Positions 15,839-31,555 of a DNA stretch of 64,000 bases are shown here, piece after piece. Below the pieces are notes generated by a model. The model ran no database searches. It worked only from the letters and a program-made list of their open reading frames with translations, and was not told the origin of the DNA. Where the stretch lies: contig NZ_CP108036.1 in assembly GCF_036170895.1 (NCBI RefSeq), forward strand, positions 4,777,501 through 4,841,500. Reading direction: 5' to 3'. The position numbers and the translations under genes were made by a program. Source of the DNA: Streptomyces erythrochromogenes. GTDB taxonomy: Bacteria > Actinomycetota > Actinomycetes > Streptomycetales > Streptomycetaceae. Position 1 is the first letter of the stretch; every line of letters starts with the position of its first letter.

Positions 15839-16753
15839 TCAGCCGAAGGGGCCGCGGCGGGCCAGCGGGGGGATCGCCATCGGCGTGGCGATCTCGTCCT
15901 CCGCGGCGCCGCTGTCCTGGCGCAGCGCCGACATGACCATCAGCTGCGGGTCCTGGAGCAGCAGCCGCGCGTGCAGCGCGCGCAGGGCCGGGCCGGGTTC
16001 CACGCCGAGTTCCCCGACGACCCGGGCGCGCTGCACGGCGTACGTCGTCAGCGCCTCGTTGCCGCGGTCCGAGCGGTAGAGCGCGAGCATCAGCAGCCAC
16101 AGGAAGCGCTCGCGCAGCGGGTATTTGTGCACGGCGTAGTGCAGGTACGGGACGGCGTTGCGGTGCCGGCCCAGTTCCAGTTCCAGTTCCGCGCGCACCT
16201 CCATGTCCGCCAGGAAGCGCTCCTGGCGGTAGAGCCGCTCGCGGTCCAGCATGGGCCCCTCCAGGCCCTCCACGAGAGGGCCCGTGGACATCGTCCGGGC
16301 CTCCTCCAGCAGCTTGACCGCCTGCATGATCTCGCCCTTGCGGGCCGCCGCGATGCCGGCCGCAGCCAGCTGTTCGTACGTGTAGAGGTCCACCTCCGAG
16401 GCGCCGACGTCCATCCGGTAGCCGCCGCCCGACCATTCCAGCGTGACGCCGGGGCCGTCGCCGTCCAACGCGGTCAGCAGGCCGCGCAGGCCCGAGACGG
16501 ACTTCTGGATCAGGTTCTTCGCGTAGGCCGGATAGTCCTCCCCCCAGAGTGACTCGATCAGCTGGTCGACGCCCGTCTCCAGGCCAGGTCTCAGCAACAG
16601 CACGGCCAGCAGGGCCCGTTGTTTCGGCGGCCCCAACTCCAGTGTCTTCGCTCCCCTGTTGACCTGGAGCGGTCCCAGCAGTCGGAAACGCAAGTGTGAA
16701 GTACCCCTGTCGTCCCCGTAGAAGCCGCGCTCACGCAGCAGCACACCACTCAT
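15839..16753 (-). CDS. SARP-family transcriptional activator (AfsR/SARP)
   Basis: A 304-residue regulator. Residues about 20-105 are an OmpR-type winged helix (LRFRLLGPLQV, LGPPKQRALLAVLLLRPG, LIESLWGEDYPAYAKNLIQKSVSGLRGLL). Residues about 115-270 form the bacterial transcriptional activation (BTAD) domain with TPR-like helices (VDLYTYEQLAAAG, ELELELGRH, RERFLWLLMLALYRSDRGNEAL). There is no ATPase domain, so it is a small SARP. SARPs switch on antibiotic and signal clusters by binding heptamer direct repeats. It is divergent from the afsA-like operon, its likely target. GGGGGAAGA precedes the ATG. Confidence 0.93.
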   Translation of the reverse strand: MSGVLLRERGFYGDDRGTSHLRFRLLGPLQVNRGAKTLELGPPKQRALLAVLLLRPGLETGVDQLIESLWGEDYPAYAKNLIQKSVSGLRGLLTALDGDGPGVTLEWSGGGYRMDVGASEVDLYTYEQLAAAGIAAARKGEIMQAVKLLEEARTMSTGPLVEGLEGPMLDRERLYRQERFLADMEVRAELELELGRHRNAVPYLHYAVHKYPLRERFLWLLMLALYRSDRGNEALTTYAVQRARVVGELGVEPGPALRALHARLLLQDPQLMVMSALRQDSGAAEDEIATPMAIPPLARRGPFG

Positions 16754-16765
16754 TCTTCCCCCCGA

Positions 16766-16783
16766 GTAAGGCCACGGTAAGGC
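16766..16783. promoter_or_regulatory. Candidate SARP-binding direct repeat
   Basis: Two identical heptamers GTAAGGC at 16766-16772 and 16777-16783 have the 11-bp period expected for SARP sites. They are followed by an inverted repeat CGGTAA-N9-TTACCG (16775-16795). The site begins 13 bases upstream of the SARP ATG, in the shared region with the afsA-like operon. Confidence 0.5.
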
Positions 16784-16955
16784 TAGGTATTACCGACTGG
16801 TTCGCGCCATTTGGAGATCAAATGAGAGGGGGATCACACCCCCTGACATCTTGACGTTGTCCGCTGGTTGAGATCCGTGCGCCAGCCATGCACCTGGGAC
16901 GAGAATGCCGCCGCGGCCGGTCAGCGATCGTTCCAGCGGCTCGTCAAACCACGTA

Positions 16956-16993
16956 CTCCAAGGTGAGAGCGTCCCCGCTCTCGCTCTTTGGAG
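16956..16993 (+). promoter_or_regulatory. 5'-UTR hairpin covering the afsA ribosome-binding site
   Basis: CTCCAA (16956-16961) pairs with TTGGAG (16988-16993), whose GGAG is the ribosome-binding site. Inside, GAGAGCG (16965-16971) pairs with CGCTCTC (16976-16982) around a TCCC tetraloop. Translation may be limited until the structure is opened. Confidence 0.5.
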
Positions 16994-16999
16994 AAAACG

Positions 17000-17983
17000 A
17001 TGACAGGTCCAGCGCAGCAGGACGAGCTCCGTTCCGCTCTCAGATTCGACAGCACCGTCCCGCGGGCCATGGTCCACCGCGCCGCGATCGCCGAGGTCTT
17101 CCTGACCGATTCCCGCCGCGTACCGGATCGGGCCGACACCTACGAGGTCGCGGCCCAGCTGCCGCGCGCCCACATCATGGGCGAGCAGTCGGGCACCCAC
17201 GACTTCCTCCTGCTCATCGAGATGCTGCGTCAGGCGGGCGTGTTCCTCGCGCACGCCTACGAGGACGTCGCGCTGGACGAGTCCTTCATCTTCCGCCACC
17301 TGCAGACCGAGGTGCGGGACCGCTCCGCCCTGCGCACCGGCGACCGGCCGGCCCGCGCCGTCGCCACGCTCACGGTCCTGCCGCAGCGCAAGCGCAACGG
17401 CCGGGTGCAGGCCATCGACTTCTCCGGCACGCTCGCCATCGACGGCAAGGAAGCCCTCCGCTGCAGCGGCGGCCTGGCCTTCTTCACCCGCGGCGTCTAC
17501 CACGCGCTGCGCGACCGCCGCCGCAGCACGCTCGCGGACACCCTCGGCGCCCTCCCCACCCACGTGGCCGCCGCCCCCGCCTCGGTCGGCCGCCGCGACC
17601 CGTACAACGTGGTGATCACCCAGCCCCTCGCCGCCGGGGAGAGCGCGTTCGCCGCCACCGTGCTCTCCGACACCACCCACCCCCACCTCTTCGACCACCA
17701 GCTCGACCACGTGCCCGGCAACCTCCTGCTGGAGGCCGCCCGCCAGCTGGCCGCCGCCTCCGTGTCCTCGCTGCACGCCATCTCGGCGACCGGACTGCAG
17801 GTGACCGCGATGGACGCGCAGTTCCACGAGTTCGCCGAACTCGACCTGCAGACCCGCGCCGTGGCCCGCGTCGAGCAGTTCCGCCTCAAGGACTCGCTGC
17901 GCACCCTGGTCGTCCCGGTCGTCGTGGACGTCCTCCAGCAGGGCCGGGTCGTCGCCGCGTTCCGCCTCGAGGTGGCCCAGTGA
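17000..17983 (+). CDS. AfsA-family butyrolactone synthase-like protein
   Basis: A 327-residue protein with two AfsA hotdog repeats. The first (about residues 15-160) has VHRAAIAEVFLTDSRR, PRAHIMGEQSG-HDFLLLIEMLRQAG and ALDESFIF. The second (about 190-320) has DTTHPHLFDHQLDHVPGNLLLEAARQ, the family's most conserved block. AfsA enzymes condense a beta-ketoacyl-ACP with dihydroxyacetone phosphate, the first committed step to gamma-butyrolactone signals. The length matches characterised members. The ATG at 17000 has GGAG six bases upstream. It overlaps the next gene by four bases (GTGA), so translation is coupled. No ArpA-type receptor gene lies nearby. Confidence 0.92.
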   Translation: MTGPAQQDELRSALRFDSTVPRAMVHRAAIAEVFLTDSRRVPDRADTYEVAAQLPRAHIMGEQSGTHDFLLLIEMLRQAGVFLAHAYEDVALDESFIFRHLQTEVRDRSALRTGDRPARAVATLTVLPQRKRNGRVQAIDFSGTLAIDGKEALRCSGGLAFFTRGVYHALRDRRRSTLADTLGALPTHVAAAPASVGRRDPYNVVITQPLAAGESAFAATVLSDTTHPHLFDHQLDHVPGNLLLEAARQLAAASVSSLHAISATGLQVTAMDAQFHEFAELDLQTRAVARVEQFRLKDSLRTLVVPVVVDVLQQGRVVAAFRLEVAQ

Positions 17984-18657
17984 CGTTCCGCCCCATCACC
18001 ACCGTGGTCGTCGACTACGGCGGTGTCCTGACCAACCCGCTGATCGAGACCTTCGCGGCCTTCGCCCGCGCTGTGGACGTTGCGCTGCCCGAGCTCCAGG
18101 AGGCCTTCGCCCGCGCGGCGCGGCGCCACGGCAGCAGCCCCATGGCCGACCTGGAGACCGCCCGCTGCACCGAGACCGAGATGGTCGAGCGGGTGCTCGC
18201 CGAACTGCCCGGCGGCCGGACGTACGCCGACCTGCTCGGCGACGAGCCGTTCGGCGAGGTGTGGTTCCGCGCCCGGACCGTCAACGAGCGGCTGGTCCGC
18301 TTCCTGCGCGAACTGCGCCAGAGCGGCTACCGGACCGCCCTGCTGACCAACAACGTCAAGGAGTGGGGGCCGCGCTGGCGCGCCCAACTTCCCGTGGACG
18401 AACTGTTCGACGCCGTCGTCGACTCCTCGGAGGAGGGGGTGCGCAAGCCCGATCCGCTGATCTACCGGCGGCTGCTGGAGCGGCTGCCCGCGACGGCGCA
18501 CGAGTGCCTCTTCCTCGACGACCTGGACGAGAACTGCCAGGCCGCCTCGGACCTCGGCATGCTCGCCGTCCACTTCACCACCACCGACGAGGCGGTCGAC
18601 CAGATCGTGGCCCTGCTCCGGTCCCGGGGCGGCGCCTACGGCAGGAGCCTCGTATGA
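17980..18657 (+). CDS. HAD-superfamily phosphatase
   Basis: A 225-residue haloacid dehalogenase-like protein. Motif I is VVDYGGVLTN, with Gly in place of the second Asp as in epoxide-hydrolase-N/variant-3 HADs. Motif II is LLTNN, motif III is VRKPDP, and motif IV is LFLDDLDEN. A helical cap domain spans about residues 20-95. The GTG start overlaps the AfsA stop, and its own stop overlaps the next ATG. The AfsA product carries a phosphate that must be removed on the way to a mature butyrolactone, so this enzyme is a reasonable candidate for that step. This is inference from context. Confidence 0.88.
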   Translation: MTFRPITTVVVDYGGVLTNPLIETFAAFARAVDVALPELQEAFARAARRHGSSPMADLETARCTETEMVERVLAELPGGRTYADLLGDEPFGEVWFRARTVNERLVRFLRELRQSGYRTALLTNNVKEWGPRWRAQLPVDELFDAVVDSSEEGVRKPDPLIYRRLLERLPATAHECLFLDDLDENCQAASDLGMLAVHFTTTDEAVDQIVALLRSRGGAYGRSLV

Positions 18658-20354
18658 CGCAGACCGACACCGTGCTGATCGTGGGCGCCGGCCCCACCGG
18701 CCTCACCACGGCCTGCACCCTGCTCCAGCACGGGGTGGACGCCCGCGTGATCGACCGCAGGAACGGGCCGGCCAGCGAACCCAAGGCGCTGATCCTGTGG
18801 AGCGGCGCCCTCGAAGTGCTGCGCCGCATCGACGTCGCGGACTCCCTGGAGAAACGCTCGCTGCCGCTGTCCGGCGCCTCCTACTGGTCCGGCGGCAGGC
18901 GCACCGGCGGCGTCCGCTTCGGCGCGCTCGCCGACACGGCCTTCCCGCGCCCGCTGTGCGTACCGCAGTCGGTGACCGAGGGCGTGCTCTACGACCGGCT
19001 GCTCAAGCTCGGCGGGAACGTCGAATGGAACACCGAGCTCGCCGCGGCCCGCGTCACCGGCTCCACCCCCTCCAACGTCTCGGTCACCCTCTCCGTCCCC
19101 GGTACGGGCTCCCCGGCGCCCTTCTCGCCGCGCTGGCTGGTCGGCGCCGACGGCACCCACAGCACGGTGCGCGCGGCCGCCGGCATCGCCTTCGAGGGCA
19201 GCACCTACGCACGCGACTTCCTGCTGGGCGACGGCGTGTTCACCGGCGGCCTGCCCGAGGACGAGGCGCAGTACCACCTCACCCCGGAGGGCGTGCTGGT
19301 CGTCGTACCGCTGCCCGGCGGCGGGCACCGCGTCTTCTTCGACCGCGACGCCACCGGCGAGGTGCGGCCGCTGTCCGACGAGGAACTCCAGGAACTGCTG
19401 ACGGCCCGCGGCCCGAAGGGCTGGACGCTCCAATCCACCTGGTGGCGCAGCACCTTCCGGGTGCACACCAAGGTCGCCGGGAAGTTCCGCGAGGGCTCGG
19501 TCCTCCTCGCCGGCGACGCCGCCCACTGCCACAGCCCCGCGGGCGGACAGGGCCTCAACACCGGTGTGCAGGACGGCTTCAACCTCGGCTGGAAGCTGGC
19601 CGCGGTGATCAACGGCGCGGACCCGGCACTGCTCGACAGCTACGAGGCCGAGCGGCGGCCCGCCGCCCTGCGCGCCCTGCGCAACTCCGACCGCCAGACC
19701 CGGCTGTGGATGCTGCGCCAGGGGCCCAAGCGGGTCCTGCGCGACACCCTGCTGAAGGTGGCCACCGCCACCGGCGCGCTGGACCGCCGGATCGTCCCGG
19801 AGCTGGCCCAGCTCGATCCCGGTCTGGAGTCGAGCCCCGCGGTGCCCGGCGAGCTCCCGAGGACCGGCTCCCGCGGCGGCCGCACCACCAAGGGGCCGGG
19901 GCTGCTCCGCCCCGGGGTCCGGCTGCCCGACACCCCCTGGCAGCCGCTGCACGGCACCGCGGCCGCCTCGCTGCACGAGTTCCTCGCGACCGGCCGGCAC
20001 ACCCTGCTGGTGCTCCAGGGCGCGGGCGGTGCCGATGCGGGCGGCGCCGGCGCCGGCGCGGGCGAGCGCACCGCCGCGGAGGCCGCCGAGCTCGCGGCCC
20101 ACTCGACCGTACGGTCCCAGACCGACGTCCTGCTGCTCACCGACCACCGGCCCCGGGGCGGGAGCGACGCCTCGGCGCCGTACGCCCGGGCCGTCGACAT
20201 CGGCCGGAAGCTGACCGCGATCGCCGAGGCGGGCCCGCTGGTCGTCTACGTGCGCCCCGACGGGGCGGTCGGCGCCTGGTCCTCCCACCGGGACCTGATG
20301 CGGCTCGCGGCCGGGGTGTCCGTGCTCGGCGCGGCCGTGGAAAGCGTGGCGTGA
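18654..20354 (+). CDS. FAD-dependent aromatic/PHBH-type monooxygenase
   Basis: A 566-residue flavoprotein hydroxylase. The N-terminal dinucleotide fold is VLIVGAGPTGLTTACTLLQHG. The conserved WLVGADGTHSTVR motif lies near residue 160. The second flavin motif is VLLAGDAAHCHSPAGGQGLNTGVQDGFNLGWKLA near residue 285. The C-terminal 150 residues form the thioredoxin-like dimerisation domain of phenol hydroxylase-type enzymes and carry a Gly/Ala-rich insert. Such enzymes hydroxylate, epoxidise or ring-expand polyketide-like substrates using NAD(P)H and oxygen. It is translationally coupled to both neighbours in the afsA-like operon. Confidence 0.9.
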   Translation: MTQTDTVLIVGAGPTGLTTACTLLQHGVDARVIDRRNGPASEPKALILWSGALEVLRRIDVADSLEKRSLPLSGASYWSGGRRTGGVRFGALADTAFPRPLCVPQSVTEGVLYDRLLKLGGNVEWNTELAAARVTGSTPSNVSVTLSVPGTGSPAPFSPRWLVGADGTHSTVRAAAGIAFEGSTYARDFLLGDGVFTGGLPEDEAQYHLTPEGVLVVVPLPGGGHRVFFDRDATGEVRPLSDEELQELLTARGPKGWTLQSTWWRSTFRVHTKVAGKFREGSVLLAGDAAHCHSPAGGQGLNTGVQDGFNLGWKLAAVINGADPALLDSYEAERRPAALRALRNSDRQTRLWMLRQGPKRVLRDTLLKVATATGALDRRIVPELAQLDPGLESSPAVPGELPRTGSRGGRTTKGPGLLRPGVRLPDTPWQPLHGTAAASLHEFLATGRHTLLVLQGAGGADAGGAGAGAGERTAAEAAELAAHSTVRSQTDVLLLTDHRPRGGSDASAPYARAVDIGRKLTAIAEAGPLVVYVRPDGAVGAWSSHRDLMRLAAGVSVLGAAVESVA

Positions 20355-22636
20355 TGCTGAGGCTCCTCGGCGCGCACGTGGTGCGCCGGCCGTGGCTGTT
20401 CCTGGTCGCGGCCCTGGTCCTGGTCCTGGACGCGCTCCTGCTCGGGGCGGACCTGCCCGACCGGCTCGGCAACGGCGGTACGACGGACCCGGCCTCCGAA
20501 TCGGCGCGCGTGCAGCGCGTGCTGGAGGCGCACTACCCCGAGCAGCAGCCCAACCTGGTCCTGCTGGTCTCCGTACCGCAGGGCGGGCAGGTCGACGACC
20601 GCGCGCTCGCCGCGCAGGGCGCCGGCCTCGCGGAACGCCTCGCCTTCGAGAAGCCGGTCGTCGGCGTGGTCTCCTACTGGCAGACCGGCCTCGCCGAGCT
20701 GCGCTCGCACGACGGCCGGCAGGCCGTGATCGCCGCCCGCATCGTGGGTGACGAGGACCGGGCCCGGGCCGCGCTGGAGGAGCTGGCGCCCCGGTACCGG
20801 GGCGGGCAGGGCGAACTGACGGTCCGGATCACCGGACCGCTCGCCGTGCGGGACGAGATCCAGTCCACGGTGGCCGAGGACCTGGCCCGCTCCGAGCTGA
20901 TCGCGCTGCCGCTCACTCTGATCGTCCTGGTCTGGGTCTTCGGCGGGGTGCTGGCCGCGGCGCTGCCGGTCCTGGTCGGGCTCGTCACCGTCCTCGCGAC
21001 GGGGGCCGTCCTGCGGATCATCACCGGATTCACCGAGGTGTCGGTCTTCGCGCAGAACCTCACCACGGCGCTGGGGCTCGGCCTCGCCATCGACTACGCG
21101 CTGCTGATCGTGCGCCGTTTCCGCGAGGAACTGGACGCCGGCGCGGCACCCGGGGACGCGGTGGCCCGCACCGTGCGCACCGCCGGGCGGACCGTCCTCT
21201 TCTCGGCGCTGACCGTCGCGGTGGCCCTGGCCGCCATGCTGGTCTTCCCGCTGTACTTCCTGCGCTCCCTCGCCTACGCGGGGATCACCGTGGTGCTCGT
21301 CTCGGCGCTCGCCGCGCTGACGGTACTGCCCGCCGCGCTCGCCCTGCTGGGGCGCCGGGTGGACGCGCTGACCGTACGGCGACGGCGGCGGCTACGGCGC
21401 GGGCCCGCGGAGGGAGCCGTGCCCGGAGCACGGGTGACGCGGCTGGTGATGCGCCGCGCGCCACTGGTCACCGCCGCGGTGACCGGGGTGCTGCTGGTGC
21501 TGGGCCTGCCCTTCCTGGACGCGCGGTTCGGCACGGCCGACCACCGTCAGCTGCCCGCGTCGAGCCAGTCGCGGGCCGCCCAGGAGTCCCTGCGGACCGA
21601 CTTCGACGACCTGCCCGAGGGCTCGGTCCCGGTCCTGCTGCGCGACGGCGGGGCCGCCCCGGCCGAGGCGCAGGAGCGGACCGGCCGGATCGCCGGGAAG
21701 CTGTCCGCGCTCGCGGGGGTGACCCGCGTCGAGTCCTCGGCCGGCACCTACCGGGACGGCCGGCTCACCGAGGTCCCCTCGCCCGCCGACTCCGGACGCC
21801 GGACGGCCGGGTACGACCTGCTCACGGTGGTGGCCGAGGACGACACGGCCGCGACCTCGGCCGCCCACCAGGACCTCGTACGGGCCCTGCGCACGGCGGC
21901 GGGGCCCGACGGAGCCTCCGTGGGCGGTCCCGCGGCGGAGGTGGTCGACAGCAAGGCCGCCATCGGACGGGGCCTGATCCCCGCCCTCGCCCTGATCCTC
22001 CTCGGCACGCTGGTCCTGGTCTTCCTGCTCACCGGAAGCGCGGTGCTGCCGCTGCTGACGGTCCTCCTCAACGGGCTCAGCCTGACCGCCATGTTCGGCG
22101 CCGTGGTCTGGGTATTCCAGGAGGGCGCGCTGTCCGGGCCGCTCGGCTTCACCGCGACCGGCGACATCGAGGCGACCCTTCCCGTCCTCATGTTCTGCGT
22201 GGCGTTCGGCCTGTCCATGGACTACGGCGTGTTCCTCGTCGCCCGGATCAAGGAGCACCACGACCGCGGCGGCGACCACCGCGCGGCCGTCCTGGCCGGG
22301 ATGCGCAGCACCGGCGGGCTGATCACCGCCGCCGCGGTGGTCCTCAGCGTCGTGTTCGTCTCCATCGGCCTGTCCCGGATCACGAACACCAAGATGCTCG
22401 GCCTCGGCGTCGCCCTGGCCGTCCTGGTCGACGCCCTCGTCGTCCGCACGCTGCTGGTCCCCGCGGTGTTGGCGCTGCTGGGCCCCCGTACCTGGTGGGC
22501 CCCCGCCCCGCTGCGCCGCGTGCACCGCCGCCTCGGGCTGCGCGAGGGGACCGATCCCGAGCCGCAGCCCTCCGCCCCGGACTCCCCGGCCGGCCCCGAA
22601 AGGACCTCGCATGACCGAGAACCCGCCGCCCTCTGA
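20354..22636 (+). CDS. MMPL-family RND exporter (first copy)
   Basis: A 760-residue polytopic transporter. One membrane segment at about residues 10-30 is followed by an extracytoplasmic loop. Then come five clustered membrane segments (from about residue 180) including GLGLAIDYALLIVRRFREEL. A second loop and a second cluster follow, with CVAFGLSMDYGVFLVARIKE, the duplicated proton-relay motif. This is the two-fold MMPL architecture that exports lipids, glycolipids or hydrophobic metabolites. The ATG overlaps the monooxygenase stop (a GTG at 20351 is also possible). The next gene starts 26 bases before its end. Confidence 0.92.
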   Translation: MLRLLGAHVVRRPWLFLVAALVLVLDALLLGADLPDRLGNGGTTDPASESARVQRVLEAHYPEQQPNLVLLVSVPQGGQVDDRALAAQGAGLAERLAFEKPVVGVVSYWQTGLAELRSHDGRQAVIAARIVGDEDRARAALEELAPRYRGGQGELTVRITGPLAVRDEIQSTVAEDLARSELIALPLTLIVLVWVFGGVLAAALPVLVGLVTVLATGAVLRIITGFTEVSVFAQNLTTALGLGLAIDYALLIVRRFREELDAGAAPGDAVARTVRTAGRTVLFSALTVAVALAAMLVFPLYFLRSLAYAGITVVLVSALAALTVLPAALALLGRRVDALTVRRRRRLRRGPAEGAVPGARVTRLVMRRAPLVTAAVTGVLLVLGLPFLDARFGTADHRQLPASSQSRAAQESLRTDFDDLPEGSVPVLLRDGGAAPAEAQERTGRIAGKLSALAGVTRVESSAGTYRDGRLTEVPSPADSGRRTAGYDLLTVVAEDDTAATSAAHQDLVRALRTAAGPDGASVGGPAAEVVDSKAAIGRGLIPALALILLGTLVLVFLLTGSAVLPLLTVLLNGLSLTAMFGAVVWVFQEGALSGPLGFTATGDIEATLPVLMFCVAFGLSMDYGVFLVARIKEHHDRGGDHRAAVLAGMRSTGGLITAAAVVLSVVFVSIGLSRITNTKMLGLGVALAVLVDALVVRTLLVPAVLALLGPRTWWAPAPLRRVHRRLGLREGTDPEPQPSAPDSPAGPERTSHDREPAAL

Positions 22637-23714
22637 GCCGGCTCCGCGCCCACCGGGGCCCGGCGCCGTCATGGTCACCGGAGCCACCGGGCTCCTCGGG
22701 CACGCCGTCGTCGCCCGGCTGCTCGCCGCCGGGTCCGAGGTGACGGCCGTGGTCCGCGACGTCGAGCGCGCCCGCACGCTGCTGCCGAACTGCCCGCAAC
22801 TGCGGCTGGTCGCCGGGGAGGTGAACGACATCGACAGCTACGCCGGCGCCCTGCGCGGGATGGACGCGGTGATCCACACGGCCGCCTACTTCCGCGAGTA
22901 CTACCAGCCCGGACCCGACCTGGAGCTGCTGTACCGCACCAACGTGGACGCGGTGGAGGAACTGCTCAAGGCCGCGGTGGACGCCGAGGTGCCCACCGTG
23001 GTGCAGACGAGTTCCATCGCCGTGCTCGGCGGCGGGGACCGGCGCTCGCCCGCCGACGAGGACACGCCCAACGGGGACCCCTCCCGGGGCAACCACTACC
23101 GGGCCAGCAAGATCCGCGCGGAGCGGGTGACCCGCCGCTTCGGCGAGCGCTACGGGCTGCGGGTGCCGCTCGTCCTGCCCGCCTGGATGTGGGGGCCCGG
23201 CGACGCCGGGCCCACCTCCGCGGGCCGGCTCTTCCTGGCCGTGGCGCGCGGCGGGATCAAGGCGCTGCCGACGGCGGGCAACCACCTGGTGGACGCCCGC
23301 GACGTGGCCGCCGTCTGTGTCGCGGCGGCCGCGCCGGAAGCCGGCGCCGGGCGCTGGATCGCGGGCGGCAGCTGGTACCCGCTGCACGAGATCTGCGCGG
23401 CCGTCGTACGCGCCACCGGGTCCGGGACGGTGCCGCGCAGGCTGCCCGTGCCGGCGGCCATGACGATCGCGTCGGTCCTGCAATGGCGGGCGAGGGCCTG
23501 CGGGGCGGCGCCGGTCGCCACCCGGACCGGGATGCGCACGCTCCTCGAAGGACACCACCGGAGGGTTTCCTCCGCCCGGGCCGTGCGCGAACTCGGCGTG
23601 AGTTTCCGCCCGTTGGAACAGACCGTCGCGGACCAGGCCGCCTGGCACCGGGCGCAGGGACAGCTTCCGGCCCCCGCCTCGGCGGCGCTGACACGAAAGG
23701 TGAGGAGTGCATGA
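22611..23714 (+). CDS. NAD(P)-dependent extended SDR (epimerase/dihydroflavonol reductase-like)
   Basis: A 367-residue extended short-chain dehydrogenase. MVTGATGLLGHAVVARLL supplies the cofactor motif, VIHTAAYF the second conserved strand, and QTSSIAVLG plus HYRASKIRAERV the Ser and Tyr-x-x-x-Lys catalytic residues. A 20-residue Pro-rich leader precedes the fold. It probably reduces a ketone or acts on a hydroxylated intermediate of the operon's product, by analogy with reductases of butyrolactone pathways. It overlaps the MMPL gene by 26 bases and the hydrolase gene by four. Confidence 0.9.
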   Translation: MTENPPPSEPAPRPPGPGAVMVTGATGLLGHAVVARLLAAGSEVTAVVRDVERARTLLPNCPQLRLVAGEVNDIDSYAGALRGMDAVIHTAAYFREYYQPGPDLELLYRTNVDAVEELLKAAVDAEVPTVVQTSSIAVLGGGDRRSPADEDTPNGDPSRGNHYRASKIRAERVTRRFGERYGLRVPLVLPAWMWGPGDAGPTSAGRLFLAVARGGIKALPTAGNHLVDARDVAAVCVAAAAPEAGAGRWIAGGSWYPLHEICAAVVRATGSGTVPRRLPVPAAMTIASVLQWRARACGAAPVATRTGMRTLLEGHHRRVSSARAVRELGVSFRPLEQTVADQAAWHRAQGQLPAPASAALTRKVRSA

Positions 23715-24907
23715 GCATCATCAAGCGGGTCGCCGTACTGGGCGCGGCCGTGGCGCTGCTGGCGAGTCCGGTGGCGGCGGCCATGACCGCCGCGGCCGAC
23801 ACCCCGGCGGCCGGAGCAGCGGCGTCCGGCGGCGCGGCGGCGGGCACGGCGGCGGTGTCCGTGCCGCCGTCCCCGGCCGAGGCCGCGGCGGCCGCGAAGG
23901 AGACCGCCGCGCGGCTCGCCGCCCGGCACATCGTGGACGTGCCGGTCAGCTTCACCGTGCGCAACACCAATGGGAGCAAGGCAGGTTGCCGCACCAGCGG
24001 TGCGACCCAGCGGATCAGCGGCCACCTGACCGCACCCGCCTCCGTGTGGGCGGGCGGGAAGCGGGCCGTCACCCTCTACCAGCACGGGATCGCCTCCGGA
24101 GAGTGGTACTGGCGCCTCGACGTGCCCGGCTACCACTACGCCGAGGAGCTCGCCGTCCGCGGCCACGCCTCCGTCACGATCGACCGGCTCGGCTACGGAG
24201 CCAGCGACCGCCCCGACGGCTTCGACACCTGCATCGGGGCCGAGGCCGACATCGCGCACCAGATCGTGCAGCAGCTGCGGGCCGGGACGTACAGCCTCGA
24301 CGGCACGCCCGCCGAGGGCCCGGCCACGGCCCAGGGTTTCGACACGGTCACCCTGGCCGGACAGTCCAACGGCGGCCAGGTCGCCCAGATCGCGGCGTAC
24401 TCCTTCGGCGCCGTCGACGGCCTGATGATCATGGACTGGACCGACCGGGGCCTGACCCCCGAGGCCAACACCCGCTTCTTCACCGCCCTCCAGGGCTGCA
24501 TGGCGGGCGGCCGGCCGAGCCGCGATCCCTCGGACCCGAGCGGCTACGTCTACTACGACCTCGGCCCGGACCAGTTCCGCCGGGGCAACTTCCACGACAC
24601 CGAGCAGCGCGTCATGGACGCCGCCGCCCCGCACCAGAACCGGCACCCGTGCGGCGACATGAGCTCACAGCTCGACTCCGTCTTCACCGACCTGGAGCAC
24701 CTGGGCTCGATCAGGGTCCCGGTCCTGCTGGTCTACGGGGACGAGGACGCCCGCGTCACCGGAGGCGCGGCCCACCAGCGGCTGTTCACCGGTGCCCCGA
24801 CCGAGCTCGTCACCGTTCCGGGCGCCGGCCACTACGCCACGATGGCCCGTTCCGCGGCCTCCACATTCGACCGGATCGACGCCTGGCTCGACGCCCGCGG
24901 CCTGTGA
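23711..24907 (+). CDS. Secreted alpha/beta hydrolase
   Basis: A 398-residue protein with a cleavable signal peptide (about residues 1-30, hydrophobic core VAVLGAAVALLASPVAAAMT). An Ala-rich linker leads to an alpha/beta-hydrolase fold with VTLYQHGIASG (oxyanion region) and VTLAGQSNGGQVAQIAA (nucleophile elbow G-x-S-x-G). VLLVYGDEDARV presents the acid and GAGHYATM the catalytic His. Four cysteines could form disulfides outside the cell. In this operon it may hydrolyse or esterify the exported product, including lactone opening; that is inference. A GAGG-type ribosome-binding site precedes the ATG, which overlaps the SDR stop. Confidence 0.88.
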   Translation: MSIIKRVAVLGAAVALLASPVAAAMTAAADTPAAGAAASGGAAAGTAAVSVPPSPAEAAAAAKETAARLAARHIVDVPVSFTVRNTNGSKAGCRTSGATQRISGHLTAPASVWAGGKRAVTLYQHGIASGEWYWRLDVPGYHYAEELAVRGHASVTIDRLGYGASDRPDGFDTCIGAEADIAHQIVQQLRAGTYSLDGTPAEGPATAQGFDTVTLAGQSNGGQVAQIAAYSFGAVDGLMIMDWTDRGLTPEANTRFFTALQGCMAGGRPSRDPSDPSGYVYYDLGPDQFRRGNFHDTEQRVMDAAAPHQNRHPCGDMSSQLDSVFTDLEHLGSIRVPVLLVYGDEDARVTGGAAHQRLFTGAPTELVTVPGAGHYATMARSAASTFDRIDAWLDARGL

Positions 24908-25019
24908 ACCGCGCGCCCGTGAACCGCGGCCCGCGAACCGCCGACGACGGCCCGTGAGCCGCCGGCGACCCCCGTCCCCCGCCCCCACACACACCTCCCC
25001 TTCGTCCAGAGAGCAGACC

Positions 25020-27317
25020 ATGCCCCGTACACACACGTCCGACCGCCCCGACCCCCACGACCGTCCGCCGGCCCTCCAGCGCTGGGGACGGGTGACCGCC
25101 GCCCGGTCCCGGCTCGTCGTCTGGGCCGGCGTGGTCCTCGCCGTCCTCGGCCTGGTCCTGGCCGCCGGCACCATGAACCGCCTGGTCCTGAGCCGCTTCG
25201 AGACCCCCGGCTCCGAATCCGTGACCACCCGGGCGTTCCTGGAGAAGGAGTTCGAGGCCGGCACGCCCAGCGTGCTGCTGATGGTCACCGCCAAGCAGGG
25301 CACCGTGGACGGCGACGCGGTCGCCGGCGAGGGCCGCGCCCTGGAGCGGGAACTGGCCGGCCAGGACGGCGTGGCCGAGGTCTTCTCGTACTGGTCGCGC
25401 GGCAACTCGCCCGTCATGCGCGGCAACGACGGCAAGCAGGCCCTGATCATCGCCCGCATGGCCGGCACGGTGACCGAGGCACGGACCCGGCTCGCCGACA
25501 TCTCCCCGGCCTTCACCCGCGACGGCGCCCAGGTCAAGGTCCAGGTCGGCGGCGGTGACGAGATCTTCCGGCAGGCCGCCGAGCAGTCCCGCAAGGACTT
25601 CCTGCGGGCGGAGATGATCGTCTTCCCGCTCGTCCTGCTCCTGCTCTTCGCGATCTACCGCCGCTTCTCCGCCGCCTTCCTCACCCTCGGCATGGGCCTC
25701 TTCTCGGTGATCACCACGCTGGCGCTGATGCGCGGCGTCACCTACCTCACCGACGTCTCCACCTTCGCCGCCAACCTGGCCCTGGTGATGGGCATCGGCC
25801 TCGGCGTCGACTACAGCCTCTTCGTCATCAACCGCTTCCGCGAGGAGCTGCGGGCCGGGCGGACCGTCCCCGACGCCGTCGAGCAGTCCGTCGCCCACGC
25901 CGGCCGCACCGTCGCCTTCAGCGGTCTCACCGTGGTCCTGTCGCTGGCCGCCCTGCTGCTCTTCCCGTTCCCCTTCCTGCGCTCCTTCGCCTACGCCGGC
26001 GTCGCCACCGTCCTGACCTCGGTCTTCGCCGCGCTCGTGATCCTGCCCGCGGCCCTGGCCCGGCTCGGCCGGAAGGTCCTGCGCAAGAACGACGGCACCC
26101 GCCCCGAGCAGGGCTGGTGGCACCGCACCGCGCTGCGCATGATGGGCCGCCCGCTGCTCTACGGGATCCCCGCGCTGGTGGTGCTGCTCGGGCTGGCCTC
26201 GCCCACGCTCGGCCTGACCTTCGGCGTGCCGGGTGCGCAGGTGCTGCCCCGGGACGTGTCCAGCCGCGTCGTCCAGCAGCAGATCCTCGACAACTTCGCC
26301 GCCGAGGAGATGAGCGCGATCAAGGTCCTGCGCACCGGCCAGGCCGGGACCGACGCCAACCGCTCCTCGATCGACGCCACCGCCGCCGAGCTGTCCCGGA
26401 TCGCCGGGATCCACCAGGTCGACGCCCTCACCGGCTCGTACGCCGAGGGGCAGAGGATCGCCGAACCGGGCGAGGCCTCCCGCCGGTTCGCGAGCGAGCG
26501 CGACACCTGGTACTCGGTCGTCGCCACCCACCGCACCGTCGCCCAGGACATCGACCGGGCCCACTCCGAGATCCGCTCCGTCGCCGCCAAGGGTGCCGAG
26601 CCCGGCGCCGTGAAGATCGGCGGCTACCCGGCCGAGCTGAGCGAGTTCCGTGCCGAGCTGGTCGACCGGCTGCCGCTGGTCTTCGGGCTGATCCTGGTGA
26701 CCACCTTCCTGGTGCTGTTCCTGATGACCGGCAGCGTGCTGCTCCCGGCCAAGGCCATGTTCCTGAACACCCTGAGCATGGGCGTGATGTTCGGCGTCCT
26801 CGTGTGGATCTTCCAGGAGGGCAACCTGGCCGACCTGTTCGGCTTCACGCCGAGCGGCTCCATCGAGCCCAGCATCCCGATCCTGATGTTCTGCGTGGCC
26901 TTCGGCCTCTCCATGGACTACGAGGTCTTCATGCTGTCCCGGATCAAGGAGGAGTACGACCTCACCGGTGACAACGCGGGCGCCGTGGCCGCCGGCCTGG
27001 AGCGCAGCGGGCCGCTGATCACCTCGGCGGCGGTGATCCTCGCCGCGTCGTTCGCCACGTACGCCTCCTCCGAGATCGTCTTCCTGAAGATGCTGGGCAT
27101 CGGCATGGTCGTCGTGATCCTCCTCGACGCGACCCTGATCCGCGCGGTCCTCGTACCGGTTTCGATGCGGCTCGCGGGCAAGGCCAACTGGTGGGCGCCG
27201 GCGCCGCTGCGCGCCTTCCACGACCGCTTCGGCATCTCCGAGTCGTCCCCGGCCGCGCAGCCCGCGGCCGCCGCCCCCGACACGGCAGGGGCCGGCGTCC
27301 GCGCCGGCCGCTCCTGA
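25020..27317 (+). CDS. MMPL-family RND exporter (second copy)
   Basis: A 765-residue MMPL transporter with the same two-fold plan as the copy at 20354. The first loop follows a segment at about 35-55. The first membrane cluster has VMGIGLGVDYSLFVINRFREEL and the second has FCVAFGLSMDYEVFMLSRIKEEYD. It differs from the first copy in many positions, so it is an old paralogue rather than a recent duplication. Its 112-base gap from the hydrolase gene contains AGAGAGCAG before the ATG. Two exporters in one operon suggest two substrates, or a heteromeric pump. Confidence 0.92.
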   Translation: MPRTHTSDRPDPHDRPPALQRWGRVTAARSRLVVWAGVVLAVLGLVLAAGTMNRLVLSRFETPGSESVTTRAFLEKEFEAGTPSVLLMVTAKQGTVDGDAVAGEGRALERELAGQDGVAEVFSYWSRGNSPVMRGNDGKQALIIARMAGTVTEARTRLADISPAFTRDGAQVKVQVGGGDEIFRQAAEQSRKDFLRAEMIVFPLVLLLLFAIYRRFSAAFLTLGMGLFSVITTLALMRGVTYLTDVSTFAANLALVMGIGLGVDYSLFVINRFREELRAGRTVPDAVEQSVAHAGRTVAFSGLTVVLSLAALLLFPFPFLRSFAYAGVATVLTSVFAALVILPAALARLGRKVLRKNDGTRPEQGWWHRTALRMMGRPLLYGIPALVVLLGLASPTLGLTFGVPGAQVLPRDVSSRVVQQQILDNFAAEEMSAIKVLRTGQAGTDANRSSIDATAAELSRIAGIHQVDALTGSYAEGQRIAEPGEASRRFASERDTWYSVVATHRTVAQDIDRAHSEIRSVAAKGAEPGAVKIGGYPAELSEFRAELVDRLPLVFGLILVTTFLVLFLMTGSVLLPAKAMFLNTLSMGVMFGVLVWIFQEGNLADLFGFTPSGSIEPSIPILMFCVAFGLSMDYEVFMLSRIKEEYDLTGDNAGAVAAGLERSGPLITSAAVILAASFATYASSEIVFLKMLGIGMVVVILLDATLIRAVLVPVSMRLAGKANWWAPAPLRAFHDRFGISESSPAAQPAAAAPDTAGAGVRAGRS

Positions 27318-27344
27318 TCCACCAGGTCCGAGGGAGAGGGACAC

Positions 27345-28634
27345 ATGCTGGGAATCGGATTGTGGGCGCTCATGCTGGCGGGCTCCGGCGCCGTCCACTA
27401 CTACCTGTGGATCCGGCTCGTCCGTGACACGACGAAGCCCCGGACGACGGGCCGGCGGCTGGCGACCTGGGGGGTGGTGCTCTCGGCGCTGCTCGCTCCC
27501 GGGACGCGGATGCTCACCCCGCTGTTCGACCCCTCGGACGGGGGAGGCGGCCGGTTCCTGGCATGGCCCGGCTACACCCTGATCGGCGTACTGCTCTACC
27601 TGCTGATGGTGCTCGCGGTACTGGAGCTGCCGCGGGCGCTGCTCCTGCGCAGGTGGCGGCGGAACGCCGGGCAGCAGGACGAACCGGCTCCGGTACGGGT
27701 CCCCGTGGCGGCCGCCGCTCCCGATGCCGCGGCCGTGCCGGCTGCGGCCGAAGCGGCTCCCGCTGCGCCGGGGGAGGAAGACCAACGGCTGCTCGGCCGC
27801 CGCCTGTTCCTCGGCCGGGCCGTGGGCACCGTGGCCGGGGCCACCGCCCTCGGCACGGTCGGCTACGGCATGTCCTCCGCGCTCGGCGACCCGCTGGTCA
27901 AGCGCGTGCCGGTCACCCTCGCCAAGGTGAACCCGCGCCTGGCCGGCCTGCGGATCGCCGTCGTCAGCGACATCCACCTGGGCCCCCTGCTGGGGCGCGC
28001 CCACACCGAGCGGATCGTCCGTATGGTCAACGGGCTCCAGGCCGACCTGGTGACGATCGTCGGCGACCTCGCCGACGGCACCGCCTCCCAGCTGGGACCG
28101 GCGGCCCGCCCGTTGAGGGCGCTGGAGTCCCGGTACGGGAACTTCTTCGTCACCGGGAACCACGAGTACCTCTACGACGGGGTCGAGGACTGGCTGGACG
28201 AGATGCGCAACGTGGGGGTCCGCCCGCTGGTGAACGAGCGCGTGGAGATCCGGCACAACGGGGCCTGGCTCGACCTGGCCGGCGTCGAGGACCTGGCGGG
28301 GGAGGAGTTCGGCCGCGGACCCGACCTGGGCAAGGCCCTGGGCGGGCGCGACCTCTCGCGTCCGGTCGTCCTCCTCGCCCACCAGCCGGTCTTCGCCGAC
28401 GAGGCGGCCCGGCACGGGGTGGACCTCCAGCTGTCCGGACACACCCACGGCGGACAGATGTTCCCGCTGACCGCGGTCACTTCGCTGGTCAACCCCGTCA
28501 ACTCGGGGCTCGGCAGGGTGGAGGACACGCAGCTGTACGTGACGAACGGCGCCGGCTTCTTCGGCCCGCCGGTCCGCGTCGGCGCCCCGGCGGAGATCAC
28601 CCTGCTGGAGCTGCGCTCGCCGCTGCCCGCGTAA
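27345..28634 (+). CDS. Membrane-anchored metallophosphoesterase
   Basis: A 429-residue protein. Membrane segments at about residues 4-20, 42-60 and 73-100 are followed by an Ala/Pro-rich linker and another hydrophobic stretch near RRLFLGRAVGTVAGATALGTVGYG. From about residue 195 there is a calcineurin-like phosphoesterase domain with VVSDIHLGPL, VGDLADG, VTGNHEYLYDG, LLAHQPVF and LSGHTHGGQM, all the expected metal ligands. The substrate is unknown; related proteins hydrolyse lipid or nucleotide phosphates at the membrane. It starts 27 bases after the second MMPL gene with a GAGGGAGAGGG site, so it is probably the last gene of the operon. Confidence 0.9.
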   Translation: MLGIGLWALMLAGSGAVHYYLWIRLVRDTTKPRTTGRRLATWGVVLSALLAPGTRMLTPLFDPSDGGGGRFLAWPGYTLIGVLLYLLMVLAVLELPRALLLRRWRRNAGQQDEPAPVRVPVAAAAPDAAAVPAAAEAAPAAPGEEDQRLLGRRLFLGRAVGTVAGATALGTVGYGMSSALGDPLVKRVPVTLAKVNPRLAGLRIAVVSDIHLGPLLGRAHTERIVRMVNGLQADLVTIVGDLADGTASQLGPAARPLRALESRYGNFFVTGNHEYLYDGVEDWLDEMRNVGVRPLVNERVEIRHNGAWLDLAGVEDLAGEEFGRGPDLGKALGGRDLSRPVVLLAHQPVFADEAARHGVDLQLSGHTHGGQMFPLTAVTSLVNPVNSGLGRVEDTQLYVTNGAGFFGPPVRVGAPAEITLLELRSPLPA

Positions 28635-28709: not shown

Positions 28710-30350
28710 TCAGTTCTGCTGGTAGACGCCGAACATGTCGACCACGAGGTCCGCGGGCTCCCAGCCCCGGTTCCAGAAGTCGATGACGCCGGTCTTGCCG
28801 GTGCTCGCCTGGACCAGGTTCGGGACGGTCGCGCCCCTCGTCCAGTTCAGGTTCGAGGAGTTCGGCGGGGTCGGCGGCTTCCACGTGTCGTTCTCGTACT
28901 GCGCCCAGGTGTTCGGGTCCGGGGCGACCGAGAGGTGACCGCTGCCGCGGGTGTTGGTGACCGTCGTGTTCAGGACGTACGCCGTGTTGTTCGGCTTGCC
29001 GTCCGCCAGCGGCAGCCAGCGGTAGTCCTGGCCCTCCACCGGCCAGTCCCACTCGCGGGAGTCGTGCAGCCGCGTCGGCAGCACGGGCAGGTAGGCGGCC
29101 CCGCCGTTGGGCGTGTAGTAGCCGACGACGTCCACGACCACGTCGGCCGGGTCCCAGGCGCCGTTGCGGACGTTGATCTGGCCGTCCGGGCCGACCGGGA
29201 CGATCACCGAGTTCGCGATCGTCTGGGTGGCGCTGAAGTTCACGTTCGACGTGCCGGGCGCCTGCTGCCCGCTCGGGAAGACCGTCAGGTGGCCGGCGCC
29301 GCGAGGGCCGGTGACGGTGACGTTGAGGGCGACGGCCGTGACGTTGGAGGACGGGATCGCCCCGCGGCCGGCGACCTGGACGGGGAACTGGCTCTGACCG
29401 GCGACCTGACCCCAGGTGCCGAGGCCCGAGCGGCTGTCGACGATGCGGGTCGGTTCCAGCGCGGTGTAGCCGCCGGCGGAGGCGGAGGCGCTGAAGTAGC
29501 CGGTGACGTCCGCGAGCAGGTCCACGTCGCCGTAGCTGCGGTTGACGAGCTCGACGTAGCCGTCCGCGCCCACCGGCACGATCGTCATGTTCGGCACGGT
29601 CTGGCCCGCGGTGAAGTTGACGTTGGAGGTGGTCGGCTGCTCCGTGCCCGACGGGTAGGCCGTGATGTGGCCGCCGGAACGGGGGCTGACGACGGTGACG
29701 TTGAGCGCCACGGCGGTCGCGCCGTCCGGGATGCCGCTGTTGCCGCCGACCTTCACGCGGGCCACGCCGTACGGGGTGACCGGGCGGTTGCTGCCGCCGA
29801 TGCCGCTGCGGGTGTCGAGCAGCCGGGTCGGGGCGTGGGGGGTGAACTTGGAGCCCAGGGCCTGGACCTCCACGCTGTTGGTGGCGGTCACGTTGTTGTT
29901 CTGGTCGGTCAGGGTGACCGTGACCTTGTGCTTCCCGACCTGGGCGAAGGTGTGCTTCGAGGTCAGGAGCTTGGCCTTGGTGACCTGCTCGGTGTCGGTC
30001 TTGCCGTCGCCCCAGTCGATGTCGACCCGGACCGAGGACCCGGCGCCGGTGTTGATCTGCGACTCCAGGCTTATGCCGTGCGCGCTGGTGCCCGACGCCT
30101 CCAGGCCGACCGAGAGGCTCTGGTTGTCCTTCGCGGCGGCGGCCGAGGCGCCCGCGGACTTGCGGACCGTGCGCTCGGCCGGGCTGCGGAAGACAGCGGA
30201 CTTCGCCGCCGCGGCCGTAGCCGAGTCGATCTTGGCGGAGACGCTCCCCGTGCGCTCCGCGGGCTGGTCTGCGGCCTGGGCCGCGGTCGGTACGAAGCCG
30301 ATGGCCGCCGCTACGACGGCAGCCGAAATCATGACGCGGTGACGCTGCAC
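28710..30350 (-). CDS. Secreted protein with PKD-like domain and three repeated surface domains
   Basis: A 546-residue exported protein. A signal peptide ends near AAQAADQP. A PKD-like beta domain follows (VRVDIDWGDGKTDTEQV, HTFAQVGKHKVTVTLTD). Then come three copies of a domain of about 115 residues, each starting (A/E/L)PTR-x2-D(T/S)R and ending with a D-x-VGYF/Y strand. Between these, each copy has an ALNVTVT segment and a TSNVNF segment; copy 3 is the most divergent. The likely role is adhesion or a carbohydrate-binding surface function. The GTG at 30350 is chosen because GGGGGGA lies just upstream. It is divergent from the KAS III gene over an AT-rich space. Confidence 0.85.
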   Translation of the reverse strand: MQRHRVMISAAVVAAAIGFVPTAAQAADQPAERTGSVSAKIDSATAAAAKSAVFRSPAERTVRKSAGASAAAAKDNQSLSVGLEASGTSAHGISLESQINTGAGSSVRVDIDWGDGKTDTEQVTKAKLLTSKHTFAQVGKHKVTVTLTDQNNNVTATNSVEVQALGSKFTPHAPTRLLDTRSGIGGSNRPVTPYGVARVKVGGNSGIPDGATAVALNVTVVSPRSGGHITAYPSGTEQPTTSNVNFTAGQTVPNMTIVPVGADGYVELVNRSYGDVDLLADVTGYFSASASAGGYTALEPTRIVDSRSGLGTWGQVAGQSQFPVQVAGRGAIPSSNVTAVALNVTVTGPRGAGHLTVFPSGQQAPGTSNVNFSATQTIANSVIVPVGPDGQINVRNGAWDPADVVVDVVGYYTPNGGAAYLPVLPTRLHDSREWDWPVEGQDYRWLPLADGKPNNTAYVLNTTVTNTRGSGHLSVAPDPNTWAQYENDTWKPPTPPNSSNLNWTRGATVPNLVQASTGKTGVIDFWNRGWEPADLVVDMFGVYQQN

Positions 30351-30616
30351 CGGTCCCCCCTTTTTATTGAACCAGTTCAGAAAGTGATGCGCGTTCAGGT
30401 TACACATATCAGTCGGTCAAAAGGAACATATTTCCTAAACGCGTGAACGTACTGTCGATGGGGACGACGGGGCGTGCGTGGCGGTTGCACCGGATGTGAT
30501 CGAGTTCCGCGGACGGCGATCCTCGAAAGTCATATGAGCTCGGTCGGCCCGTGCATAGGCTGACCACCGGTCAACCCGGATCCGGGGCAGGGTCCATGGA
30601 GCGAGGAGAGTCACTG

Positions 30617-31555
30617 ATGGTCGGGTCCCGCGTCCTTGCCTTCGGGCACTATCAGCCGGCGAAGGTTCTGACCAACGCCGATCTGGAGCAGATGGTCGAC
30701 ACCAGCGACGAGTGGATCCAGAGCCGGGTCGGGATCAAGACCCGCCGGGTGGCCGCCGAGGACGAGTCGGTTTCGGACATGGCGGCGAAGGCCGCCGCGA
30801 ACGCCCTCGCCAACGCGGGGCTGACCGGCGAGGACATAGATTTCGTCATCGTGGCCACCTGCACGGCGCAGGACCGCTCTCCCAACATGGCGGCTCGCGT
30901 CGCGGCGGCCGTCGGCGCCAAGGCTCCGGCCGCGATCGACGTGAACACGGCCTGTTCCGGATTCCCGCACGCGATGGCCCTGGCGGACCAGAGCATCCGG
31001 ACCGGCTCCGCCACGAAGGCCCTGGTCATCGGCGTGGAGAAGCTGACGGACTTCGCCGACTGGACCGACCGCACCACCTGCGTGCTCATCGGTGACGGGG
31101 CCGGAGCGGCCGTCGTGGCCGCCTCCGAGGAATCCCGGATCAGCCCGGTGGTGTGGGGATCCGTACCCGAGATGGGGCACGCCGTACGCATCGAGGCGCC
31201 GTCCCACACCTTCTCCCAGGAGGGGCAGTCGGTGTACCGCTGGGCCACCACCGCCCTGCCGAAGGTCGCGCTCGAGGTGTGCGAGCGGGCCGGGGTCAAG
31301 CCCGAGGACCTGGGCGGCGTCGTCCTGCACCAGGCCAACCTGCGGATCATCGAGCCGCTGGCCCGCAAGATCGGCGCGGTCAACGCCGTCGTCGCCAAGG
31401 ACGTCGTGGACTCCGGCAACACCTCGGCCGCCAGCATCCCGCTCGCGCTCTCCAAGCTCATCGAGCGCGGCGAGATCGAGAAGGGGGCGCCCGTGCTGCT
31501 CTTCGCCTTCGGCGGCGGCCTGTCCTACGCCGGCCAGATCATCCACTGCCCGTGA
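30617..31555 (+). CDS. 3-oxoacyl-ACP synthase III (FabH-like)
   Basis: A 312-residue KAS III thiolase-fold enzyme. It has the full Cys-His-Asn triad: Cys113 in DVNTACSGF, His238 in VLHQANLRI and Asn268 in SGNTSAAS. The C-terminal glycine-rich FGGGLSYAG motif is intact. It should start or extend an acyl chain by condensing an acyl-CoA with malonyl-ACP. The ATG at 30617 follows GCGAGGAGAG; the upstream in-frame start at 30551 lacks a site. The next gene is a type II thioesterase, so the pair looks like a small accessory unit of fatty-acid or polyketide metabolism. No ACP or extender-loading gene is beside it. Confidence 0.93.
   Translation: MVGSRVLAFGHYQPAKVLTNADLEQMVDTSDEWIQSRVGIKTRRVAAEDESVSDMAAKAAANALANAGLTGEDIDFVIVATCTAQDRSPNMAARVAAAVGAKAPAAIDVNTACSGFPHAMALADQSIRTGSATKALVIGVEKLTDFADWTDRTTCVLIGDGAGAAVVAASEESRISPVVWGSVPEMGHAVRIEAPSHTFSQEGQSVYRWATTALPKVALEVCERAGVKPEDLGGVVLHQANLRIIEPLARKIGAVNAVVAKDVVDSGNTSAASIPLALSKLIERGEIEKGAPVLLFAFGGGLSYAGQIIHCP

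Follow-up and report, generated by a model that had tools for sequence, protein, structure and literature searches.

In Streptomyces, a conserved AfsA operon is linked to a SARP and to MMPL pumps, without an adjacent receptor

What does an AfsA-type synthase make when its gene lies in one run with those of two membrane pumps rather than beside a receptor? An AfsA gene is, as a rule, annotated as coding for a hormone synthase. We analysed a window of 64,000 nucleotides (the whole stretch of DNA considered here) from the 8.6 Mb genome of Streptomyces erythrochromogenes, for which the initial annotation, made from the letters alone, had proposed a SARP-controlled operon for the synthesis, dephosphorylation, oxidation and export of a butyrolactone-like product. 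Every gene that it named is present at 15839-28634, in the order AfsA-HAD-FMO-MMPL1-SDR-hydrolase-MMPL2-phosphoesterase, with the SARP divergent from these eight genes. A cognate TetR-type receptor was not found beside the synthase gene at this locus. It is an operon of conserved gene order in which AfsA is linked to a SARP and to MMPL pumps, and a local receptor is missing.

The SARP (15839-16753, reverse strand) is small and has an OmpR-type DNA-binding domain and a BTAD (Trans_reg_C 27.2 bits and BTAD 116.7 bits, both above the cut-off). The eight other genes are on the forward strand. The AfsA / ScbA-BarX family synthase (17000-17983) has two hotdog domains (PF03756, 121.5 bits; NF041195, 213.1 bits for a cut-off of 200) and is 98% identical to that of the closely related S. 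virginiae NRRL ISP-5094. Its residues E74, R77, E245 and R248 are invariant in 31 aligned rows; in work on ScbA, the Glu/Arg pairs of both AfsA domains reportedly have a catalytic role. It is followed by a HAD-superfamily hydrolase, a predicted butenolide phosphatase (17980-18657; PF00702, 69.2 bits), with a motif I (DYGGVLTNP) that is invariant in 8 rows. In this DYGGV a Gly replaces the usual second Asp, and the DxD of HAD phosphatases is therefore absent; the HAD beside another AfsA (locus L067) has DFGGV in motif I. The window protein is a HAD-fold hydrolase, and a phosphatase function is suggested by its context.

The FAD-dependent monooxygenase (18654-20354; PF01494, 242.7 bits; FAD motifs present) is of the aromatic hydroxylase class, its nearest solved relatives being a polyketide oxygenase and rifampin monooxygenase. 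MMPL1 (20354-22636; PF03176, 278.4 bits) is an MmpL3-like RND transporter and MMPL2 (25020-27317; PF03176, 231.5 bits) a second MMPL transporter; both contain the MMPL domain twice, with an Asp-Tyr pair in each half. MMPL1 resembles the MmpL3 lipid exporters in its family, in its two Asp-Tyr pairs and in having MmpL3 as its nearest relative in the PDB, but the window MMPL falls short of the equivalog cut-off for MmpL3 (392 bits for 1400). Between the two pumps are an extended SDR / NAD epimerase-type reductase (22611-23714; PF01370, 98.3 bits; GATGLLG and YRASK present) and an alpha/beta hydrolase of esterase or lactonase type (23711-24907), predicted to be secreted, with a hydrophobic N terminus. 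The last gene encodes a membrane calcineurin-like phosphoesterase (27345-28634; PF00149, 57.6 bits), YaeI-like but below the cut-off of NF008460 (73 bits for 188), with metal motifs and a single TM-like segment. None of the nine genes showed a TTA codon, MMPL1 being read from its fifth codon. Downstream, the operon adjoins genes for a PKD-domain protein (28710-30407), a KASIII (30551-31555) and a peptidase M6-like protein (32368-33645); between 30551 and 50 kb, the gene of a WYL regulator is the only one of the window with a match in the compared relatives at the cut-offs used.

Do these genes work together? From afsA to the phosphoesterase, successive junctions overlap by 4, 4, 1, 26 and 4 bases and are then separated by gaps of 112 bases (before MMPL2) and 27 bases (before the phosphoesterase), so that the remark that most junctions overlap by 1-26 bases holds for five of the seven. 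The initial annotation had also proposed looking for the same gene order in other genomes. The operon is also present in other Streptomyces, whose AfsA is 48-98% identical to that of the window, and six genomes (G042, G257, G085, G254, G333 and G052) have the order of the window, which we call type A; in G333 the SDR and MMPL1 are swapped and the hydrolase is doubled. In S. avicenniae, a type A locus (L011) has no SARP beside it and its stretch ends before the phosphoesterase. A second locus of this species (L012), on another contig than the full set without SARP, has of the window gene set only the SARP, the repeats, AfsA and the hydrolase. Outside the genus, 2 of 394 genomes of the class, both of another family, have an AfsA above 250 bits. 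Most of the order is kept in both (SARP, then AfsA-HAD-FMO-MMPL1-hydrolase-hydrolase-MMPL2, without the SDR), with a further MMPL beyond the SARP; their stretches end at MMPL2.

Two other arrangements were found. Type B loci encode MMPL, HAD, FMO and AfsA; in four genomes a gluconolactonase-like protein is encoded upstream, and in some genomes these loci adjoin a YcaO/oxidase/decarboxylase-ACP/KASIII/P450 region. In two genomes, G094 (L057/L075/L076) and G296 (L059/L077/L078), the module lies beside YcaO, ThcOx/nitroreductase, decarboxylase-ACP, KASIII, P450 and a second MMPL (Pfam matches for G094 only). Type C loci encode a phosphotriesterase-like protein, HAD, FMO, AfsA and SDR. The pairwise distances of seven genes are correlated (r 0.66-0.95, Mantel p <= 0.005, 7-18 loci per pair), which fits joint inheritance, although descent of the species contributes and can also explain it. 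Since relatives share the order even at an AfsA identity of about 48%, it is not a matter of chance. A neighbourhood of genes without common function, for which only the two gaps before MMPL2 and the phosphoesterase speak, is contradicted by this synteny, by an order that persists in another family and across a protein divergence of about 50%, and by the five overlapping junctions; we consider it extremely improbable. The conserved order and the co-divergence of the genes thus bear out the proposal of one functional unit, which is supported at the level of sequence comparison.

We then asked what sets this AfsA apart from others. An AfsA match at 1e-20 is present in 267 of 392 Streptomyces genomes, but the score exceeds 270 bits in only 16 of them, the next being 176. 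These 16 carry the AfsA clade of the window, which has 33 rows in the tree (the 16 genomes, S. avicenniae and database relatives) and a support of 100/100. The tree was made after removal of 15 of 81 candidate rows (SARP or other non-AfsA matches, including L095), and it took in 23 proteins hand-picked from 120 of the database. A plasmid origin was considered and rejected: of the 65 plasmid records that match AfsA, none reaches 60% identity.

Fifteen clade loci were compared, the window genome's own being excluded. HAD and FMO are beside AfsA in 14 of them, and an MMPL gene is within the fetched stretch in 13; in a fourteenth (G212) it is about 11 kb away, beyond the reach of the control stretches, and the contig of the remaining locus starts at AfsA. 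The SDR is present in 8. MMPL2 is found in only 6 of these 15 other loci, and the hydrolase and phosphoesterase also in 6; these six are the loci in which two MMPL genes occur together with a divergent SARP. The constant part is thus AfsA-HAD-FMO with one MMPL. In contrast, 40 other AfsA loci (30 from the AfsA list of the 392 genomes and 10 from a further search, mostly with about 9.5 kb on each side) have no MMPL, FMO in 6, HAD in 2 and a receptor in 18. These control loci come from the top of the hit lists rather than from a random draw; AfsA was found again in 38 of the 40, and 4 stretches are short. Five further loci outside the clade (L066-L070) have no MMPL, HAD in 3, FMO in 4 and a receptor in 2. 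HAD and FMO near AfsA are therefore not unique to the clade. The data support the MMPL pump as a feature of the window AfsA clade and of none among the 40 other AfsA loci, in line with the initial suggestion that the pumps set this operon apart. Another AfsA group (L069, L120, L124, L132) adjoins KASIII, in some cases with FMO and an aldo-keto reductase, and is perhaps a further end-product pathway.

The receptors differ as well. The genome encodes three ScbR-type receptors above the family cut-off, the nearest about 0.78 Mb from the operon, which agrees with the earlier remark that no ArpA-type receptor is adjacent. A classical GBL locus with an adjacent receptor was sought and rejected, there being none at the window and, in the fetched stretches, a GBL receptor in none of the 15 clade loci. 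The window shares the AfsA family with the ScbA/ScbR and BarX GBL loci. The host's own locus at 6.94 Mb (L070) has this GBL layout; unlike the window, it has an adjoining receptor and no MMPL match in a 20 kb stretch. It also has an epimerase-type SDR, only 33% identical over 135 residues to that of the window, a low similarity for a putative GblE/JadW2-type role of the latter. Instead, the product could be a butyrolactone, butenolide or furan hormone whose receptor gene lies elsewhere in the genome, the pumps merely exporting the signal. The AfsA of the operon matches the ScbA/BarX model, no AfsA match adjoins two of the three ScbR-type receptors (those at 7.96 and 4.01 Mb), and the enzyme sets MmfL/MmfP/MmfH and SabA/SabP/SabD, as far as the consulted parts of their reports go, make signals with similar enzymes. 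Yet a receptor in none of the clade loci against 18 of the 40 others makes this explanation unlikely.

These known systems are the closest described parallels of the enzymes. The furan systems MmfL-MmfH-MmfP and AhfaL-AhfaP-AhfaH combine, as reported or proposed in the sections available of two papers, an AfsA-type synthase, a phosphatase and a flavin-dependent enzyme (PMC7037778, PMC13307308). By family and description they resemble the window operon in having these three in one cluster; they differ in their TetR receptors (AhfaR, AhfaS), where the window has a SARP and no receptor, and the window adds, relative to the clusters as described in these sections, the SDR, the hydrolase, two MMPL pumps and the phosphoesterase. 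The SAB butenolides involve an AfsA-like enzyme (SabA), a phosphatase (SabP) and a dehydrogenase (SabD), all three with a counterpart in the window; unlike there, pumps, an FAD monooxygenase and a hydrolase are not among the genes described in the excerpt consulted (PMC6930871). That butenolide chemistry can start an antibiotic rather than a hormone is exemplified by the synthase MmyD of methylenomycin, which, in the portion of the source consulted, is AvrD-like, with a proposed pentulose substrate and other enzymes than the window (PMC12593393). In the literature searched, which mostly excludes subscription papers and was covered in part, we found no AfsA operon joined with an MMPL pump, and one mention of an MMPL, CalT of calcimycin.

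The regulation was approached from the region between the SARP and afsA. The element TCAGCG-N5-TCCAGC-N5-GTCA (16921-16946, forward strand), a proposed SARP operator, is exact upstream of afsA in G000, G042, G257, G052, L011 and L012; before afsA it has 3 mismatches in G085 and G254, 4 in G333 and 6, a background level, in the two f89 loci. Among 1,500 pieces of 230 bases drawn at random from the window, 7 have zero mismatches (taken to overlap the element itself), none has 1-3 and 25 have 4, a score that makes the G333 site weak. The window genome has one exact copy only, between the SARP and afsA. There is no sign of a wider SARP regulon in this genome, where 15 places have up to 2 mismatches versus 24 for a reversed control. 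Across the 392 genomes, the 16-base pattern has 17 exact places in 14 genomes versus 2 for the reversed pattern. Five of these places are in four operon genomes, a single one is in G074, and the other 11 are spread over nine genomes that lack the AfsA clade. A second exact copy lies before MMPL2 only in G052 (6-7 mismatches in the other 9 of 10 loci); with the 112-base gap, it makes a second promoter possible.

The heptamers TCCAGCG/TTCAGCG, three times at an 11-12 bp period, score above random pieces in 12 of 12 SARP-side regions (p <= 0.02). This test left out G042, L011, G1073 and G1111, and the two f89 loci were not in it; the heptamers were derived from earlier loci, and the pump-only sequences had been inspected before scoring. 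A motif-free analysis of periodicity is not significant for the window sequence alone (p about 0.3 at 12 bp) and is clear for Streptomyces sp. V4I2, so the repeat claim is carried by conservation and the heptamer score. Upstream of afsA in V4I2 (L009), TTCGTCCA occurs in three perfect copies spaced at 12 bp, and a near copy follows. Published SARP sites are described, in the parts of the sources consulted, as heptamer direct repeats in the target promoter with spacers of 4-15 nt (PMC10972967), or as units of 11 or 22 bp placed 8 bp before the -10 (PMC10936776). The repeats of the window match these sites in kind, and the SARP is predicted to bind them. In relatives, the SARP is divergent beside the type A operon or beside MMPL2. 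The proposed SARP link gains from both: the repeat array is conserved between the SARP and afsA, and it also separates the SARP from MMPL2 in the five genomes that lack the enzymes. Elsewhere in the host genome, a third AfsA (C1:1912339-1913220; L005, L006) has a SARP directly behind it, 34% identical to that of the window, and G103 has a similar pair.

These pump-only genomes provide a view of the operon in another state. An MMPL2 with at least 67% identity is found in 10 of 392 genomes, four of which (G074, G287, G205 and G103) lack the AfsA clade. These four and G345 (54% MMPL2) have the arrangement SARP, repeat array, MMPL2, and the AfsA, HAD, FMO, MMPL1, SDR and hydrolase of the operon were found in none of the five. 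In G074 the phosphoesterase is present as well, its match falling into three pieces, and downstream in G103 lie another AfsA and another SARP. The context of MMPL2 was compared in 13 of the 36 genomes bearing it (seven operon genomes, these five and G165); in G271 and G353, outside the 13, the MMPL2 match is on another contig than AfsA. In the MMPL2 tree the enzyme-free state requires five changes, all forced by well-supported branches; the SARP tree, which is smaller, also requires five, three of them forced. Between G074 and G257, both flanks have 87-97% DNA identity and six genes are absent from the former. The simplest reading is that the synthesis genes were lost and the regulator and pump retained, with transfer or gain also possible. 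No receptor match was found in the stretches of the enzyme-free genomes, where pump and SARP adjoin, which also speaks against a hormone.

Alternatively, the SARP and MMPL2 could form a transport unit that is older and serves a lipid substrate of its own, in which the AfsA genes lodged between operator and pump, so that MMPL2 would not serve the AfsA product. The five enzyme-free genomes are what this would predict, as are G165, with an MMPL2 relative and no SARP or AfsA, and the type B and C loci, where AfsA-HAD-FMO occurs without the type A MMPL2 nearby. However, AfsA and MMPL2 distances are closely correlated (r 0.92, 10 loci), the enzyme-free rows are scattered among operon-bearing rows, and G074 keeps the flanks of G257 with the six genes missing. 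Because of these last two points, loss fits better than repeated gain, and we regard such lodging as quite unlikely. That five genomes retain MMPL2 although the synthesis genes are absent suggests a role of its own for this pump, in self-protection or with another substrate, a possibility that the initial annotation did not raise.

The reading that we favour, with a probability of about two in three, is a SARP-activated pathway in which the AfsA butenolide is dephosphorylated, oxidised and exported as a secreted metabolite, not a hormone for a local receptor. We infer the enzymatic steps, the binding of the SARP, the direction of transport and the product as follows. The SARP would bind the repeats before afsA and switch the unit on; AfsA would join a beta-ketoacyl thioester to dihydroxyacetone phosphate to give a phosphorylated butenolide, which the HAD would dephosphorylate; oxidation and reduction of the product would fall to the FAD monooxygenase and the SDR, and its passage across the membrane to MMPL1 and/or MMPL2; and the hydrolase may cut an ester or lactone outside the cell. 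A secreted end metabolite is more likely than a hormone read by an adjoining receptor.

A related module is present outside this clade. On plasmid pFiD188 of R. fascians D188 (52-62 kb; L089), genes for MMPL, hydrolase, AfsA, HAD, MFS, FMO and aldo-keto reductase form one run, with identities to the window of 47% (MMPL, to MMPL2), 55% (hydrolase), 35% (AfsA), 44% (HAD) and 44% (FMO). Pfam confirms the MMPL, AfsA, HAD, FMO and aldo-keto reductase, the MFS being taken from the annotation of the record; the hydrolase has no Pfam match at 1e-5, yet is 55% identical to that of the window. Compared with the window, MFS and aldo-keto reductase replace the SDR and the second MMPL, and a TetR replaces the SARP. 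The pFiD188 AfsA is outside the window clade, on a long branch. The module adjoins LysR, LysE and argininosuccinate lyase and synthase genes.

The finding has consequences for how these genes are read. An AfsA clade with an MMPL pump and without an adjoining receptor would be misread under the rule that annotates AfsA as a hormone synthase, and it marks an uncharacterised metabolite class in 16 of the 392 sampled Streptomyces genomes. Whether AfsA chemistry feeds end products, and by which route such a molecule leaves the cell, become testable, and the relatives that have the SARP and the pump without the enzymes are a natural experiment. We put forward, as a tentative and rather doubtful extension, that an AfsA-type synthase was recruited into the pathway of an exported bioactive (antibiotic- or lipid-like) molecule, with MMPL2 providing self-protection, and that losses of the enzymes, apparently five independent ones, produced relatives that retain the SARP-driven pump as immune non-producers of the molecule made by their neighbours. 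If true, this would be a system of producers and immune cheaters built on a family of hormone synthases.
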